Shown here piece after piece: positions 13,837-37,204 of a stretch of 37,832 bases of DNA. Each line of letters starts with the position of its first letter. The stretch's first letter is position 1. The notes beneath the pieces were generated by a model. That model saw only the letters and a program-made list of their open reading frames with translations. It made no database searches and was not told the origin of the DNA. Source of the DNA: Candidatus Schekmanbacteria bacterium (lineage in GTDB: Bacteria; CSSED10-310; JACPHN01); NCBI GenBank assembly GCA_016188575.1, contig JACPHN010000257.1, forward strand, positions 1 through 37,832. Reading direction: 5' to 3'. The translations under genes and the position numbers were made by a program.

Positions 13837-14209
13837 GCCCGATTCTCCGTCGAAAATTGTCGTCCCACGACCCACGGGAAACGATCTTGCACTCGCTGTG
13901 CCATCATCGGGTCAGGCTCGCCGGCGCGCATGGGAATCGCATCTGGCTGCGCCTGTTCGCGGCAAAATCCGGCGAGGCATGGAAGTTTTTCCAGGCGGCG
14001 GAAAAACCCGCAAGGGGCAATGGAAAAAAACACCAGAGCGCATGGACCCCTGCATCCACCGCCTGTGCGACTGCGAGCTGTGCAGAAGAGATGACCGTTG
14101 CGCCTCAGCTCCAGGCCACGGCCCACCATCTCCGCGCGGCAGCCATGCTTGACAACCCCAGGCCGCGCCTGTAGCCTTTGTTTCACCCACGAAAGGAGCG
14201 AAGGTCACG
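13837..14209. other. Divergent intergenic region with one dispersed-repeat copy
   Basis: This 373-bp spacer lies between the divergent secreted hydrolase and the PAS-sensor operon. It contains a partial copy of the window's dispersed repeat at 14050-14098 and otherwise nothing I recognise. Promoters for both flanking genes should be here. Confidence 0.5.
14050..14098 (+). repeat. Dispersed intergenic repeat, partial copy
   Basis: The core GCCTGTGCGACTGCGAGCTG is followed by TGCAGAAGAG. It matches the copies at 28450-28496, 30840-30886 and 37076-37122 over the first 35 or so bases, then diverges. It has the same orientation as the others. Confidence 0.5.
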
Positions 14210-22933: not shown

Positions 22934-24391
22934 TCAGCTCATCCAGTTGCTTTGGCGCTCCGCCGACCACTTGGTCGTGATCTTCTTCGTGCGCGACCAG
23001 AAGTCCACGGCGCTACGTCCGGTGATGTCTCCTTCGCCGAAGGCGCTCGCGTTCCAGCCGCCGAAGGGGAAAGGCTCGCGCGGCACGGGGACACCCACGT
23101 TCACGCCGATCATCCCCGCGTGGGCGCGTTCACAAAAGACCTCCGCCACCCGGCCGGAGCTGGTGTACACCGCGGCGGCGTTGCCATAAGGAATGGCGTT
23201 TTCGATCCGCAGCGCGTCCTCGAGAGTCTGGCAGCGGATAATCGTGAGGGTGGGGCCGAAGATTTCCTCGCTGGACGCCTCGTGCTCGGGAGAGGCGTTA
23301 TCGATGACGCACGGCCCGAGGTAGCAGCCGCCGGCGGGCGCATCAGCGGCCACGAGTGCCCGGCCATCGAGACGCAACACGGCGCCGCCGTGGGCTGCCC
23401 GGTCGAGATAGCCGATGATACGCGCGTACGCGCGCTCGCTGATAATCGCGCCCAGATCGCGTCCAGCGCGAAGCTGGGCCATCTTCTCGACGATCCGATC
23501 GACGATGAGGCCGACGTCGCCGACGGCAAGCAACACGCTCGCGGCCATGCAGCGCTGTCCGGCACAACCGCTGACGGAGGCGACGACGTTGGCGGCGGTC
23601 ATTTCAGGATCGGCGTCGGGCACCACGATCAGGTGGTTTTTGGCGCCGCCAAGCGCGCGCACGCGTTTGCCGGCGGCCGTGCCGCGGCGGTGCACGAGAC
23701 GGGCCACACGCGTCGAGCCGACGAAGCCAATCGCCTGAATCCCCGGGGCGTCGCACAGCGCCTCGACGATCTCCCCGTCGCCGTGCACCACCGAAAATAC
23801 GCCGCGCGGAAGACCGGCCTCATCCAAAAGCTGCGCGAGCTCCAGCGCGCTCATCGGCGTCTGCTCCGACGGCTTCAGAATGAACGCGTTGCCGAGGCTC
23901 ACGGCGATCGGGATCATCCACAGTGGGACCATGAGCGGGAAGTTGAAGGGCGTGATCCCGGCGACGACCCCAAGCGGAAAGCGACGGGTCTTGCATTCGA
24001 CGCCGCGACTGACCTCCAAGACGTCGCCGGGTGCGAGCTGCGGCAGGCTGGCGGCGTATTCCATACACTCCACGGCGCGGAGCACGCTGGCTCGCGACTC
24101 CTCGGGGGTCTTGCCGTTTTCGCGGCTGATGACCGCGGCGAGGTGATCGAGACGCGCCTCCGCGAGGTGCTTGAGGCGAAACATGACCTGCACGCGATCC
24201 TTGAGCGGTGTGGCGCCCCAGCCGCGGGCCGCGTCTGCCGCCGCCGCGACAACTCGGGAGAGCTCGCTTCCGGTGGACATCGGAACCTCGGCAATGATCT
24301 CTCCGGTCGCGGGCGCGGTGACGGGAAGCCAGCGATCGGTCTCCGACCGCATCCGCTCGCCGCCGACGACATTGTAAAGTCTTTCCGCCAT
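22934..24391 (-). CDS. mmsA: Methylmalonate/malonate-semialdehyde dehydrogenase (CoA-acylating)
   Basis: ATG 24391 has GGAGGAG directly upstream, so the TTG at 24403 is rejected; 485 residues. Aldehyde-dehydrogenase motifs: ITPFNFP with Asn150, KPSEQTP, FVGSTRVA, catalytic Cys281 in GCAGQRCMA, and EEIFGPTLTI. RALGGAKNHLIVVPDAD, where ordinary ALDHs carry the general-base Glu, is the hallmark of the CoA-dependent MMSDH subfamily. It converts methylmalonate semialdehyde to propionyl-CoA or malonate semialdehyde to acetyl-CoA with NAD and CoA. In this cluster it would finish thymine and uracil breakdown after transamination of 3-aminoisobutyrate or beta-alanine. It lies 136 bp after the aminotransferase gene. 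Confidence 0.9.
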   Translation of the reverse strand: MAERLYNVVGGERMRSETDRWLPVTAPATGEIIAEVPMSTGSELSRVVAAAADAARGWGATPLKDRVQVMFRLKHLAEARLDHLAAVISRENGKTPEESRASVLRAVECMEYAASLPQLAPGDVLEVSRGVECKTRRFPLGVVAGITPFNFPLMVPLWMIPIAVSLGNAFILKPSEQTPMSALELAQLLDEAGLPRGVFSVVHGDGEIVEALCDAPGIQAIGFVGSTRVARLVHRRGTAAGKRVRALGGAKNHLIVVPDADPEMTAANVVASVSGCAGQRCMAASVLLAVGDVGLIVDRIVEKMAQLRAGRDLGAIISERAYARIIGYLDRAAHGGAVLRLDGRALVAADAPAGGCYLGPCVIDNASPEHEASSEEIFGPTLTIIRCQTLEDALRIENAIPYGNAAAVYTSSGRVAEVFCERAHAGMIGVNVGVPVPREPFPFGGWNASAFGEGDITGRSAVDFWSRTKKITTKWSAERQSNWMS

Positions 24392-24527
24392 GAGCTCCTC
24401 CAAGAAGGCGGTTCGTTGGACTGGTCAGCCGCTCGGGAGCCGCCAGCAGCGGCGCCCGGACGGTCGCCGCTCATCGGGTCTGTGGGTCGTGCATTGTATC
24501 ACCGCGTTTACCCGACTGCGCGGCGCG

Positions 24528-25889
24528 TCAGGACACCCCCGCAAGCGCCACGTCGAGCGCCTCGATGGCGTATTCGGCGTCTTCCCGCGTCACGCACAGC
24601 GGCGGCTTGATGCGCAAGACGTTGCCGAAGAACCCGCCTTTCCCCACGAGCACCCGGAGCTCGCGCAGCGCTTCGAACAGCTCCAGAGTCTCTTCCTTGG
24701 CCGGCTCCTTCGTGTTGCGGTCCCGCACCAGCTCGACTCCGAGCATGAGCCCCATACCGCGCACGTCGCCGATGAGCCGATGGCGAGCCTGGAGCGCGCG
24801 CAATCCTTCCTTGAGGTAGCCGCCGACGATTCTGGCATTCTCCTGTAGCCCCTCATCCTCGATCACGTCCAGGACCGCCAGGCCCGCGGCCATACTGATC
24901 GGATTGCCGCCGTAGGTGTTGAAGTGGATCCGGGTCGCGAACGCCTTGGCGATGTCCATGCGCGTGACCACGGCCGCGAGCGGAAATCCATTGGCGATGC
25001 CTTTGGCCATGGTGACAATGTCGGGGGTCACCGCGAAGTTCTCGAATCCCCAGAAGTGCTCGCCAGTGCGCCCGAATCCGGTTTGCACCTCGTCGCTGAT
25101 GCAAACTCCGCCGTGCTCGCGGACGACTTCGTAGGCGCGGCCCAGGTAGCCTGGTGCGCCGTGCGTGGCACCGCCGACCCCCTGAATGGGCTCGGCGATG
25201 AACGCCGCCACCTTGCCTGGGGTCGAGAAGCGGATGAGGTCGCGGATGTCGGCCACGCTCTGGACCGCGATTTCTTCGGGCGTGCCGCGAAATGGGCTGC
25301 GGTAGGGATCGGGGCACACCGCGTGGCACACGCGCCCGGCGGGTGGCAGGGGAAACTTCCAGGTGCTGTGCGAGGTGAGCGTCATCGCGCCAGACGTACC
25401 GCCGTGGTAGCCGTTGCGCAGGGCGATCACGTCTTCGTTGCCCGTGTACAGGCGCGCCATGGCGATGGCGATCTCATTGGCCTCGCTGCCGCTATTGGTG
25501 AAGTAGACCACGTCGAGGCCCGGGGGAAGCTTGTCCGTGAGGCGTTTGGCGAGCGCCGGGAAGTTTGGGTGGAGATAAATCGTGGTGGCATGCTGCAACC
25601 TGTCGATCTGCTCCTTTACCCGCGCGAGCACGCGTGGGTGGCTGTGGCCGCAGGAGACCGTGACGATGCCGGCGATGAGATCCAGGTAGCGGGTGCCGGC
25701 GTCATCGTACAGATACTGCATCCATCCCTCCACGATGAGCAGCGGTTCGCGATAAATGGTGAAGATGGCGGGATGGCAGTGGGCGCGACGGGTCGCCAGG
25801 ATCTCTTCCCGGCTTGGCCCCGCGTACGGTGCGGGGCGGTGGTCGCATTGGGGAAGCTCGCGGTGCAGGCGACGTGCGGTCAGGCTCAC
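24528..25889 (-). CDS. Class-III aminotransferase, AGXT2 / beta-alanine-type
   Basis: GTG 25889 is preceded by TAGGAGAG, and that site lies in the end of the permease gene; a longer frame is open but less likely. The 453 residues contain class-III PLP motifs: YFTNSGSEANEIAIAMARLY, NGYHGGTSGAMTLT, AFIAEPIQGVGG, CISDEVQTGFGRTGEHFWGF and the PLP-binding Lys in TMAKGIANGFPL, then FNTYGGNPISMAAGLAVLDV. This is the alanine-glyoxylate aminotransferase 2-like branch, which includes 3-aminoisobutyrate/beta-alanine-pyruvate transaminases. Given the neighbours, the substrate is probably beta-alanine and/or 3-aminoisobutyrate, giving the semialdehyde used by the next gene product. Confidence 0.88.
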   Translation of the reverse strand: MSLTARRLHRELPQCDHRPAPYAGPSREEILATRRAHCHPAIFTIYREPLLIVEGWMQYLYDDAGTRYLDLIAGIVTVSCGHSHPRVLARVKEQIDRLQHATTIYLHPNFPALAKRLTDKLPPGLDVVYFTNSGSEANEIAIAMARLYTGNEDVIALRNGYHGGTSGAMTLTSHSTWKFPLPPAGRVCHAVCPDPYRSPFRGTPEEIAVQSVADIRDLIRFSTPGKVAAFIAEPIQGVGGATHGAPGYLGRAYEVVREHGGVCISDEVQTGFGRTGEHFWGFENFAVTPDIVTMAKGIANGFPLAAVVTRMDIAKAFATRIHFNTYGGNPISMAAGLAVLDVIEDEGLQENARIVGGYLKEGLRALQARHRLIGDVRGMGLMLGVELVRDRNTKEPAKEETLELFEALRELRVLVGKGGFFGNVLRIKPPLCVTREDAEYAIEALDVALAGVS

Positions 25890-25899
25890 GGTAGCTCTC

Positions 25900-27405
<1,506 letters not shown>

Positions 27406-27428
27406 GATGAGCGGCCCTGGCGCCGGGT

Positions 27429-28298
27429 CTAGAGCCGGGTGGTGGCGGTGTACGTTTCCGGCCTGCGGTCGCGGTAGAACTGCCAGACGTTGCGCACCTC
27501 GCGAATGAGCCCGAGGTCGAGGTCGGCGACGACGATGGCATCTCCATCGCGCGGCGCCTCGGCGATGATCTGTCCGCGCGGGTTCGCAAAGTACGACGTG
27601 CCGTAGAAGTGCCCGATGTTCCAGGGGGCCTCGGAACCGGGGCGGTTGATGGCGCCGACGTAGTAGATGTTGGCGCAGGCAGCGGCCGGCTGCTCGAGCT
27701 TCCACAGGTATTCGCTCAGACCCGCAACGGTCGCCGACGGATTGAAGACGATCTCGGCGCCATTGAGCCCGAGCTCGCGCCATCCTTCCGGGAAGTGGCG
27801 GTCGTAGCAGATGTAGACGCCGACCTTGCCGATCCGGGTCGGGAACACGGGGTAACCCAGGTTGCCCGGCTTGAAGTAGAACTTCTCCCAGAAACCCGGA
27901 AGGCAGTGAGGAATGTGGCTTTTTCGGTATTTGCCGAGGAAGGTGCCGTCCGCGTCAATCACGGCGGTGGTGTTGTAGTACACGCCGGTGAGGTCTTCTT
28001 CGTACATGGACGCGACCAGGACGGTCTGGTGTTTTTTCGCCAGCTCCTGCAGCAACCGCGTGGTCGGACCGTCCGGAATTCGCTCGGTGAGCCCATACCA
28101 CTTCAGACTCTGTTCGGCGCAGAAATATGGCCCGTAGAAGAGCTCCTGAAAACAAACGACCTCCGCGCCCTTGCCGGCGGCGTCGGCTAGCAGGGCGACG
28201 TGCTTGTCGATCATGGCCGACTTGATGTCCTCGACCGGGGCGCTGGCGTCCGCGCACAGGGTGGCCTGAATGAGGGCTGCTCGAACGAGTCTTTCCAT
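27429..28298 (-). CDS. Beta-ureidopropionase (N-carbamoyl-beta-alanine amidohydrolase), nitrilase superfamily
   Basis: ATG 28298 with GGGAG about 12 bases upstream is the natural start; the frame is open far upstream but crosses the intergenic repeat. The 289-residue product begins MERLVRAALIQATLC. The nitrilase-superfamily triad is present: Glu52 (CFQELFYGPYF), Lys126 (LGKYRKSHIPH) and Cys164 (GVYICYDRHFPEG). The CFQELFYGPYFC and KSHIPHCLPGFWEKFYF blocks match the beta-ureidopropionase/N-carbamoyl-putrescine-like branch. It hydrolyses N-carbamoyl-beta-alanine or N-carbamoyl-3-aminoisobutyrate to the amino acid, CO2 and ammonia. It is the first gene of the minus-strand pyrimidine cluster, so the promoter should lie in the 28299-28450 region. 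Confidence 0.9.
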   Translation of the reverse strand: MERLVRAALIQATLCADASAPVEDIKSAMIDKHVALLADAAGKGAEVVCFQELFYGPYFCAEQSLKWYGLTERIPDGPTTRLLQELAKKHQTVLVASMYEEDLTGVYYNTTAVIDADGTFLGKYRKSHIPHCLPGFWEKFYFKPGNLGYPVFPTRIGKVGVYICYDRHFPEGWRELGLNGAEIVFNPSATVAGLSEYLWKLEQPAAACANIYYVGAINRPGSEAPWNIGHFYGTSYFANPRGQIIAEAPRDGDAIVVADLDLGLIREVRNVWQFYRDRRPETYTATTRL

Positions 28299-28707
28299 GG
28301 TGCTGCTGCTCCCGAATGGACCTGATTGCCACGCGGAGTCGCGAGACCTCGCGCCGGCGGAAACAAGCCAAGTGTAGACGCGGACGGAGCGCGCCGCCAG
28401 TGGCGGGGCGAGGACTCGTACGGTTTTTGGCAAGTTCTTGCGCACACCTGAATCCACCGCCGATTCCACTGCAAGCTGTGCGGAAAGCGCATCGCGAGGA
28501 CTCCCCACCCACCTCCCCCGCCAGCCGGGGGGAGGGATGGGCGGGGTCGCTGTCGCACCGACGTCGTACAGGCGGCGGATCCAGGCAGCCGCCCGGAAGT
28601 CGCCGCGCCGCTTTGCGAAGACCGGAAGCTGGCACGCGCCCTGCACTAGCACCCGCGTCAACCGAGAGCTGCAACCACCCACCGCCCCATCCCTCAAGGA
28701 GACCACA
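28299..28707. other. Divergent intergenic region with a full dispersed-repeat copy
   Basis: This 409-bp spacer lies between the pyrimidine cluster (leftward) and the two-gene secreted locus (rightward). It contains the dispersed repeat at 28441-28546 and no other recognisable feature. Both outward promoters must be here, but no clear boxes or regulator site could be read. Confidence 0.5.
28441..28546 (+). repeat. Dispersed intergenic repeat, full copy
   Basis: The core at 28450-28496 contains CTGCAAGCTGTGCGGAAAGC followed by GCATCGCGAGGA, then a C-rich/G-rich hairpin (CCTCCCCCGCC ... GGGGGGAGGG) to about 28546. By hand count the core matches the copy at 37076-37122 at 39 of 47 positions and that at 30840-30886 at 36 of 47, without gaps. 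Confidence 0.6.
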
Positions 28708-29736
28708 ATGAGAAAAATAGCTTCCCCGCGAATACGGTTCCGAAAGCTCGCCGGCATCTGCTCGGTGCTCGCTCTGCTGGCCGGTATTCCCAGGGTTTCA
28801 GCGATGAGCAGCGTCGATCCCGGAACCGGAGGAGGAGGCGGCGGCGGCGGGACCTCGGGATCCGGGTCCAGCGCCACCCTGCAGGGTGCCACGCCGGGAA
28901 CAGACTCGCTCGAAGCGAAAATGTACGCCATTACTGTGTGGACCGACACGGAATGCGACAGCGAGGACAGCGACCTCGATCGCAGCCCATGGGACGACAT
29001 GACGCAGGCGTGGTACGACGAGATCACGTCTTCCGATCACGACATCTATTTCAAGGACGGCAGCCAGGTAAACGGCACGTTCAACCAGACACTACTGTGC
29101 GACACGCACTCCGGCTATTCGGATTGCGCCGACACCAGCAAGCTCGACGACGCCGATGCGGCGATCATCGCGACGCACGGCGGTGACAAAGACGGGCACT
29201 GGCGCGGGCGGATGCGGTCCAACGCCAGCGGTCGCACCGATTGCCGGGTCGACGCTCCGGACCCCAATTCGGGCTCGGACGAAGATCTGTTCGTGGGAGA
29301 TTCGGATCTCGAGTTTCTGCACTTTTCCTCCTGCCACAGCATGGACGACGACAACATCGGTAACACCTACCGATACTTCTATGATTCCTCCACGAGTAGC
29401 AGCCGACTGCACCAGGCGAACGGATTTCACGGTGTCATGTGGATCTATAGCTGGGAAGCAGACAACTACGAAGAGTTCGCCGATGATGCGTACAGTGTTG
29501 CAATAAGCTCGGCCTGGCAAGACAACCAGTACGACGGTTCTGTATACGATTGGGAGAACTGGGAGTATGTGGAGCAGTGCCCCGTAAGCTACGCCATCGG
29601 GTCCACCGGTGACGACTGCGAAACGCGGCTCCTCAACGAGCAATACGACTGGCAATACGGTGATCCCGAAGTCCAGTACACCTGCTATTCCTACTTCGAC
29701 GGGTGCGACCCGACGGACGACGATCCTTTCAATTAG
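28708..29736 (+). CDS. Secreted DUF6345-like protein with clan-CD-type His-Gly/Ser-Cys motifs
   Basis: ATG 28708 follows AAGGAG with six bases spacing. The 342-residue product has a signal peptide (GICSVLALLAGIPRVSA), a Gly-rich linker (40-55) and an acidic, aromatic domain. Two buried-looking strands each end in a motif: DAAIIATHGG (His157-Gly158) and LEFLHFSSCHSMDDD (Ser208-Cys209). This order and the 52-residue spacing resemble clan CD cysteine peptidases (caspase, gingipain, clostripain, legumain), where His-Gly and Ala/Ser-Cys form the catalytic dyad. Later parts contain WIYSWEADNYEEFADDA and several Cys residues that may form disulfides. From memory it resembles DUF6345, which I know only as a domain of unknown function. 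Peptidase activity is inference. It is followed at 66 bp by a second secreted protein, so the two probably work together. Confidence 0.75.
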   Translation: MRKIASPRIRFRKLAGICSVLALLAGIPRVSAMSSVDPGTGGGGGGGGTSGSGSSATLQGATPGTDSLEAKMYAITVWTDTECDSEDSDLDRSPWDDMTQAWYDEITSSDHDIYFKDGSQVNGTFNQTLLCDTHSGYSDCADTSKLDDADAAIIATHGGDKDGHWRGRMRSNASGRTDCRVDAPDPNSGSDEDLFVGDSDLEFLHFSSCHSMDDDNIGNTYRYFYDSSTSSSRLHQANGFHGVMWIYSWEADNYEEFADDAYSVAISSAWQDNQYDGSVYDWENWEYVEQCPVSYAIGSTGDDCETRLLNEQYDWQYGDPEVQYTCYSYFDGCDPTDDDPFN

Positions 29737-29802
29737 ACTTCGCTAGCGCCCGATCAAACATCACGTAGCTCCACGACTTTCAAGAATAAGAGGAAGCAAT
29801 CA

Positions 29803-30792
29803 ATGAAGCCCTCGCACAAGAAACTATCGAGCGTCGCCGTCCTGATTGTGGTTACCGTTCTTTCCGCCCGGGCAGGCGCGGCCCCTCGCCAGCGTCTCGT
29901 TACTCCGCTGGGCGCGCTCGTCACCGACGGGATGGACGCGCGGGTGGGAGATCCGGCATTCGCCGCTGGTCTGCTTGCGGCCAGGTCACAGGGTGCGTCG
30001 TTTGGCGACGCCTTCTCCCCGGCGCGGCTCGCGGCGGCCGTTGGGGACGAGGTCACGGGAACAGCGGTCCGCGCCTCGGAAACGAACCGCGGGACCATGC
30101 GCATGCGCTATCAGACCGAGCAGGGCGCGGAGCTCCGCGTGAACCGCGAAGAAGGTCGCGTTTCCTATCTGAATGCGCACCGCGCGTTCACCGCCGACCA
30201 GAACGAGAACCGGGTCAGTGTGCCGGCTGCGGAGCTCGCCCTGAGGCAGGCGGCGGGTCGCCTTGGGGTGCCGGTCGCCGAAGTTTCGGAGCGCGCGATC
30301 AGCAAGCGGCTGATGCTCGCGAATGCGGCCAAGGGGCAGGCGCCGGCGCCGGCGCGGGCGATCGAGGTCTTCGTTCGCCTGTTCCGGGAAATCGGTGGAG
30401 TCCCCGTGCTCGGTTCGAAGGCAACCGGCGCGATCGGCGCCGATGGTCGCATTGCCCGCATGCACGTGCAGTGGCCGGCGTTTCGTCTGAGCGAGCACGT
30501 GGCGCTTGCCGGACAACGATCGCGAGAGGAGATGGCGGAGCTGGTAACCACCGCACTGTCGCACCGCAACGCTACCCGGCTCGATCGCGTGCCTTCGTAC
30601 ATCGCGTTTGTGAAGGTGAAGCACCTGAGCGGCAGCGACCTGGCGAGCGCCACAGCGCGCGGCGTGAACCTCGAGGCGTTCGTCCCCGCGCTCATCGTCA
30701 GCCTGTTGCCGCAGGAGTCCGTCGAGGACAGCGGTGCAATCACCGGTGCAGTGGAGCAACTCGCGTTCTCGCTGTTCGATCTCGAGGCCTAG
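29803..30792 (+). CDS. Secreted partner protein, propeptide (FTP/PepSY)-like
   Basis: ATG 29803 follows AGGAAG with six bases spacing. The 329-residue product has a signal peptide (LSSVAVLIVVTVLSARAGAA). The mature part has ELRVNREEGRVSYLNAHRAF, a helix-rich middle with LALRQAAGRLGVPVAEVSE, and GGVPVLGSKATGAIGADGRI followed by ARMHVQWP. The last segment looks like the FTP/YPEB-type fold of thermolysin-family propeptides (GVPVxGSxxxxxxDxDGRV), which fold and inhibit peptidases. The C-terminal third (PSYIAFVKVKHLSGSDLASA and VPALIVSLLPQ) is not recognised. There is no catalytic motif. Placed directly after the His-Gly/Ser-Cys protein, it may be its chaperone, inhibitor or substrate. The resemblance is by eye. 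Confidence 0.65.
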   Translation: MKPSHKKLSSVAVLIVVTVLSARAGAAPRQRLVTPLGALVTDGMDARVGDPAFAAGLLAARSQGASFGDAFSPARLAAAVGDEVTGTAVRASETNRGTMRMRYQTEQGAELRVNREEGRVSYLNAHRAFTADQNENRVSVPAAELALRQAAGRLGVPVAEVSERAISKRLMLANAAKGQAPAPARAIEVFVRLFREIGGVPVLGSKATGAIGADGRIARMHVQWPAFRLSEHVALAGQRSREEMAELVTTALSHRNATRLDRVPSYIAFVKVKHLSGSDLASATARGVNLEAFVPALIVSLLPQESVEDSGAITGAVEQLAFSLFDLEA

Positions 30793-31362
30793 GCCAGAAG
30801 CAACCGATCAGCGACGGGCAGACGCGGCCGCGTCGGACTGAATCCGCCGCCTGGGCGGCTGCGAGCTGTGCGGAGCGTGCATCGCGCCGCTCCGCCTCCG
30901 TCACCTGCAGCGCGCTCGCCGGCCGCAGGGTATCACCGGCGAGCCGGCGCTAGCTCTCCAGGAGCTCCCCGAAACCCATAAAGAGCCTTCATCGTTGCGG
31001 AACGAGTGGGCCCCCGCAAGCGGGGGGAGGAGGACAGGTAGCGGCATCCGTCTTCTCCGGGCGCCACGAGCGCAATACCATCTCATCCGCGCTCGGTCCG
31101 GTACCCACGACTCGCGTTCGATCCTGTACTGGCGCTCAGGGCGCAACTCTCTACGGGACGTCGGTCGTGGTAACCCCCCGGGACACAGGTTCACCGCAGG
31201 CGGTCTAGCCGCAGGATTTTGGCGGTGTTCCCGGGAGGTACCGAACCGCTTGGCACTTTCCCTCGAGCATCGATTTTCCCCAGAGGGGTACAGGATTCAG
31301 GTCTGGATGTCCGGTTTTCGCCGGGCGACGAAGAAGACATCTGCCGCGCTGCCTGCCGCCGT
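30793..31362. other. Intergenic region between convergent genes, with repeat copy and hairpins
   Basis: This 570-bp region holds a perfect 14-nt palindrome GACGCGGCCGCGTC at 30821-30834 (29 bp after the stop, possible terminator stem), the dispersed repeat at 30838-30886 and a GC hairpin at 31011-31026. The remaining 330 bp has no gene I can support. Confidence 0.45.
30838..30886 (+). repeat. Dispersed intergenic repeat, copy flanking the secreted pair
   Basis: The core contains GGCTGCGAGCTGTGCGGAGC followed by GTGCATCGCG; 36 of 47 positions match the copy at 28450-28496, in the same orientation. It lacks the C-rich/G-rich hairpin tail directly after the core; a comparable hairpin appears only at 31011. 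Confidence 0.55.
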
Positions 31363-37068: not shown

Positions 37069-37174
37069 CGCACCTGAAGCCAGCGCCGGTGCGACTACAA
37101 GCTGCGCGGAAAGCGCATCACGAAGACCCCCCGACATCACTTCCCCCTGCACTGGGGGAGTCACGGACGGGGGC
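37069..37174 (+). repeat. Dispersed intergenic repeat, full copy
   Basis: Core 37076-37122 (CTACAAGCTGCGCGGAAAGC then GCATCACGAAGACC) followed by a CCCCCTGCACTGGGGG hairpin and a GGACGGGGGC tail. It is the closest relative of the 28441-28546 copy (39 of 47 core positions), including the order core then hairpin. Confidence 0.6.
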
Positions 37175-37204
37175 GCAGGCATCGTCACAGTCCGGAGCTT
37201 CGGC

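Follow-up and report, generated by a model that had tools for sequence, protein, structure and literature searches.

Introduction

A glycine beside the catalytic histidine is conserved across all families of the clan CD cysteine peptidases (PMC4357240), and in family C11 an aspartate two residues before the catalytic cysteine sets the P1 specificity (PMC4850288). The PepSY domains of M4 propeptides are intramolecular inhibitors, and it has been suggested that proteins with the shared fold inhibit a partner either within their own chain or in another protein (PMC4282423). YpeB, for example, is a PepSY protein separate from its partner SleB, which it inhibits (PMC4282423). We found no mention of DUF6345 or PF19872 in the open-access papers searched (prior recognition is possible), and none of those found for PepSY and caspase jointly connects the two.

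We describe here a locus of a Candidatus Schekmanbacteria bacterium in which the gene of a caspase-like DUF6345 protein is followed by a gene for a protein with a PepSY/FTP-propeptide-like fold; the two genes together are called the cassette. The window is the whole stretch of DNA analysed, contig JACPHN010000257.1, with a length of 37,832 nucleotides. What is new appears to be a clan CD family with one branch in an unusual two-gene arrangement. We favour, with a probability of roughly 60%, the reading that the locus encodes an exported clan CD cysteine peptidase, of an unrecognised family distantly akin to caspases and metacaspases, that is co-transcribed with a separate PepSY/FTP propeptide-like inhibitor or foldase acting in trans.

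Results and Discussion

The peptidase-like gene and its product

The features of the locus, all on the + strand, are the following:

28696–28702, +: Shine-Dalgarno-like AAGGAGA 5' of the peptidase-like gene (sequence)
28708–29736, +: DUF6345 protein of 342 amino acids, exported and caspase-like (clan CD-like) (translation, PF19872 score, 23-sequence alignment, profile–profile alignment)
28708–28803, +: signal peptide, residues 1–32, ending in VSA before MSS (judged by eye)
29176–29178, +: codon of His157, the predicted catalytic His, with the invariant Gly158 next to it (invariant in 23/23)
29332–29334, +: codon of Cys209 in S-S-C-H-S, the predicted catalytic Cys (invariant in 23/23)
29790–29796, +: Shine-Dalgarno-like GAGGAAG before P2 (sequence)
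29803–30792, +: partner gene P2, a secreted protein of 329 amino acids with a PepSY/FTP-propeptide-like fold, putative inhibitor or foldase (gene order, model, structure comparison, profile searches)

The AAGGAGA leads to the start codon ATG at 28708, and the translated protein begins MRKIASPRIRFRKLAGICSVLALLAGIPRVSA. A longer reading frame from TTG 28438 was considered and is not required. Behind the signal peptide (signal peptides were called by eye throughout), a Gly/Ser-rich linker extends to about residue 56 and is followed by a domain of about 285 residues. This domain holds the motifs IIATHGG (His157) and FLHFSSCHS (Cys209), at a spacing of 52 residues. His157-Gly and Cys209 each close one of two successive hydrophobic stretches. 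The signal peptide, both motifs and their spacing, as listed in an earlier note made from the DNA alone, are all present in the translation. The mature protein is Cys-rich and acidic, with a computed pI of 4.1.

Membership and distribution of DUF6345

The earlier description of the protein as DUF6345-like was borne out by a profile search of the genome, in which PF19872 (DUF6345) scored 32.4 bits, above its cut-off of 26.9. Our six-sequence alignment contains five further members, all of which match PF19872 directly. The default filters of hmmscan overlooked the domain in the window protein, and acidic, Gly/Ser-rich secreted proteins may be under-annotated through these filters. Of 386 genomes, chosen broadly around that of the window, 8 contain DUF6345, as does the control genome of Methanosarcina acetivorans. 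Five more close relatives came from a scan in which each bacterial or archaeal species was represented by one genome; they were found in a Deltaproteobacteria MAG, a Cocleimonas MAG, Pseudoalteromonas sp. NBT06-2, a Phycisphaerae MAG and a MAG labelled Hyphomicrobiales. Most relatives come from metagenome-assembled genomes (MAGs), and their taxonomic labels may be wrong. The plasmid, phage and viral collections held no convincing relative. In one MAG (L017, 5875–6782) the peptidase-like gene is split by a frameshift, which may be a sequencing error or mark a decaying copy. A single protein elsewhere (L010 253–3024, G262:C18) combines a papain-family (C1) peptidase, a DUF6345 domain and a C-terminal domain resembling P2.

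Conservation of the His/Cys dyad

An alignment of 23 divergent homologues has only three fully invariant columns, His157, Gly158 and Cys209, and the spacing between His and Cys ranges from 31 to 65 residues. Judged by this alignment, the two motifs are not there by chance. The check proposed in the earlier note, whether both residues are invariant in the family, thus came out positive in 23 of 23 sequences. Two features of clan CD, the order of the dyad (His, then Cys) and the Gly adjoining the catalytic His (Gly158), are kept in all 23, and the residue that precedes Cys is always small (S, A, T, G or C; 23/23).

The divergent paralogues encoded in the same genome carry the motifs THGG...KACQGS and SSHGN...ATCHSG. 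These are similar to the QACxG of caspases and the DSCHSG of metacaspases. The two residues before Cys are Lys-Ala (KAC) in the paralogues of this genome, Asp-x in some distant members and Ser-Ser in the window protein. Since the residue at Cys-2 is thought to set the P1 preference in C11 (PMC4850288), specificities probably differ, by analogy, between DUF6345 copies; the window protein has Ser at this position and not Asp, so its substrate preference is not predictable. Cys179, Cys291 and Cys333 are additionally invariant within the 12-member branch that has the partner gene, and may form extracellular disulphides.

The dyad could also have been retained for other chemistry or for structure, in a descendant of the caspase fold that no longer carries out proteolysis. 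The proteolytic activity of DUF6345 is predicted from sequence, and pseudo-enzymes that lack the dyad are common among prokaryotic caspase homologues, with 16% of bacterial metacaspases being without an intact dyad (PMC3501461). However, the pseudo-enzymes so far known lose the dyad, whereas DUF6345 has kept it in 23 of 23 members while nearly all other positions vary. We regard such a non-proteolytic descendant as improbable and continue with the reading of an exported peptidase.

Relation to clan CD peptidases

For comparison by sequence, we used 25 Peptidase_C14 and 30 Peptidase_C25 domains from the same genomes. When the DUF6345 members outside the cassettes were aligned with C14 by hhalign, the score was 43.3 (E 9.5e-6, probability 83%), for an alignment that spans the part up to and including the His-Gly. 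With all 23 DUF6345 sequences the score was 33.6 (E 3.7e-4), and His-Gly fell on His-Gly and Cys on Cys. The cassette branch alone scored 24.9, with both dyad residues matched. Column shuffling (100 shuffles per alignment) gave maxima of 20.4, 18.4 and 18.2, and the real scores lie above all of them. An origin from gingipains (C25) was considered and rejected, as the profile link is weaker than that to C14 and there is no significant sequence link. Of the two clan CD families tested by sequence, C14 (caspase/metacaspase) is therefore the nearest, and not the gingipain family. In Pfam profile searches no DUF6345 member tested reached the cut-off of PF00656 (Peptidase_C14), and there was no match at the cut-off of PF01364 (Peptidase_C25). 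PDB sequence searches with the window protein and with three alignments gave no relevant match. Outside the window, this genome also has one Peptidase_C25 match and three Peptidase_C14 matches of the ordinary kind.

The AlphaFold model of the window protein, made from six sequences, is of low confidence (pLDDT 43, pTM 0.49). In this model one strand ends at His157 and another ends two residues before Cys209. A Foldseek search with it returned nothing significant (best E 0.37, not a caspase). All 50 of the 50 rows in the VIA list belong to clan CD, and include caspases, CED-3, MALT1, legumain-type enzymes and a SAVED-CHAT protein; the best Z of 6.7 over 169 residues is within reach of unrelated folds, and the PDB contains a disproportionate number of caspases. 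The earlier note had looked to a predicted fold with the two residues facing each other at strand ends. In clan CD the His and the Cys terminate, on their C-terminal side, neighbouring parallel strands in a caspase-type sheet; the strand ends and the VIA rows of this low-confidence model may point to such a layout.

The low-confidence model, the low sequence identity and the lack of a Pfam clan CD match would all fit a convergent HG...C layout on a fold unrelated to caspases. Against such convergence stand the three profile–profile alignments, which beat all 100 shuffles with the dyads aligned, and the uniform clan CD rows for the model; we consider it very improbable. The profile result and the invariance, together with structural results that are individually weak, make it highly probable that the window protein and DUF6345 are homologous to clan CD. 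The clan CD-like layout of the dyad proposed earlier is upheld by the significant C14 alignment with superposed dyads and by the invariance in 23/23. The homology is well supported, and catalysis is predicted.

Linkage of the partner gene

P2 starts 66 bases downstream of the peptidase-like gene on the + strand and carries a signal peptide. It lies outside the stretch that the earlier note described and was not remarked there. A P2 homologue stands directly downstream, on the same strand, in 7/7 of the relatives first found. A search of the window's own genome with a P2 profile revealed two more copies, each immediately behind a divergent DUF6345-like gene overlooked by Pfam. When the upstream genes were combined into one profile, a fourth gene of this genome emerged, and the beginning of a P2 follows it where the contig ends. 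Thus, P2 lies directly 3' of the peptidase-like gene in 12/12 members of the branch, which come from nine genomes of several phyla, with four pairs in this genome. Among the 386 genomes, the P2 and upstream profiles match the same four, always side by side; three of these four contributed to the profiles, and G261, used for neither, is an independent confirmation. The cassette copy is the sole P2 match in each of the five genomes from the species scan, and no free P2 copy away from a cassette was found in the nine genomes. We found no third conserved gene around the cassettes. There is no terminator between the two genes, and no promoter was recognised. The distances of the two genes are correlated (Mantel r 0.54, permutation P 5e-5), which is consistent with joint inheritance and is not specific to interaction. 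We did not retain charge complementarity as an argument for binding, since the peptidase-like protein is acidic in every pair but P2 is basic in some pairs only.

An intergenic repeat of about 100 bases occurs in the window at 28444–28550, 37071–37176, 30838–30886 and 14046–14087, with copies 73–81% alike, and also close to the remaining cassettes of the genome (L024, L025, L046). This element seems to be interspersed throughout the genome and not to belong to the cassette. On the minus strand (22934–28060), consecutive genes resemble by eye an aldehyde dehydrogenase, an aminotransferase, a cytosine-type permease and a nitrilase-type amidohydrolase; their set is similar to a cluster for reductive pyrimidine degradation. 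Neither an RNA family nor a tRNA was found within the window.

Fold and relatives of P2

The model of P2 is of fair to good quality (pLDDT 73.6, pTM 0.73). Its structural matches are the uncharacterised 5coz (Z 12.6) and the PepSY protein YpeB (9.9), followed by YycH (8.8), YycI (8.5), the M36 fungalysin propeptide (8.0) and M4 vibriolysin propeptides (6.5 and 6.3). The modelled P2 has the PepSY/FTP fold. In Pfam the P2 of the window matches no family above cut-off, FTP and PepSY included. Across the P2 family the FTP motif is weakly matched in 2 of 6 members (best E 0.0064) and DUF4901 in one; a P2 paralogue of this genome reaches 20.9 bits for FTP against a cut-off of 21.0.

In several distant DUF6345 proteins a further domain, weakly similar to P2, is fused on the C-terminal side. 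A plain HMM search with the P2 profile did not match these domains, and a first hhalign comparison with few sequences was not convincing. With more members, the fused domain and P2 aligned at a score of 29.5, where the maximum of 100 shuffles was 18.5. This sequence comparison argues, with moderate strength, that pairing of the P2 type also exists in cis.

A clan CD peptidase could also be paired with a P2 that is an export chaperone, a surface anchor, a targeting subunit or a substrate and not an inhibitor. Non-inhibitory PepSY proteins exist, namely YycI and BqsP/Q (PMC4282423), and two P2 homologues (L006 2–1276, − strand; L016 1495–3336, + strand) have long C-terminal extensions, as in a surface-bound protein. 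The extension of L006 has thrombospondin type 3 (calcium-binding) repeats by Pfam, that of L016 has a similar repeat by eye, and these repeats suggest surface attachment. On the other side, M4 and M36 propeptides are among the nearest folds of P2, and distant DUF6345 members seem to contain the P2-like domain as a cis fusion. We judge a non-inhibitory role of this kind to be unlikely, and retain the reading of P2 as a propeptide-like inhibitor or foldase.

Proposed mechanism and significance

The peptidase-like gene (28708–29736) and P2 (29803–30792) would be transcribed together, and both proteins would be exported. During and after export, P2 may bind the peptidase in the manner of a propeptide and help it to fold. 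It would then keep the His157/Cys209 site blocked; once P2 is displaced or degraded, His157 would serve as the general base and Cys209 as the nucleophile. The sequence, the invariant dyad, the homology to C14, the P2 fold by model comparison and the strict linkage have direct support. We infer co-transcription, physical binding and proteolysis, and the inhibition of the partner by P2 is deduced, by analogy, from fold and linkage. As to the earlier suggestion of an exported cysteine peptidase or a descendant of one, the clan CD relation stands, through the invariant dyad and the C14 alignment, and the enzymatic activity is predicted. For the wider statement, in which DUF6345 is an unrecognised exported clan CD peptidase family and one branch is under a separately encoded PepSY/FTP-type propeptide in trans, we see an even chance.

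If the relation is true, a family without an assigned function, present in bacteria and Methanosarcina, joins the caspase clan, and its predicted catalytic pair is testable by single mutation. If the pairing is also true, a caspase relative uses the zymogen principle of metallopeptidases, split over two genes, with four pairs in one genome. The conserved pair of enzyme and PepSY protein makes the old question of the roles of stand-alone PepSY proteins testable with a defined partner.

Comparison with known systems

The window protein shares the HG and C motifs with the family PF19872 (DUF6345). Its branch has a separate downstream partner gene, whereas many other members are long, multidomain proteins. 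With C14 (caspases, metacaspases and orthocaspases; PF00656) it has in common the order and context of the dyad, the profile–profile similarity and the strand layout of the low-confidence model, but it is exported, Cys-rich and acidic, and has no Asp at Cys-2. Gingipain (C25), clostripain (C11) and legumain (C13) are peptidases that belong to clan CD, are exported or lysosomal and carry a His-Gly ... Cys dyad; their pro-domains are different, and C11 and C13 were compared by structure only. P2 shares its fold with the M4 and M36 propeptides and with YpeB, and in the YpeB–SleB pair the inhibition of the enzyme comes from a separate PepSY protein. Unlike P2, the M4 and M36 domains are in the same chain as a metallopeptidase, and SleB is not a peptidase.
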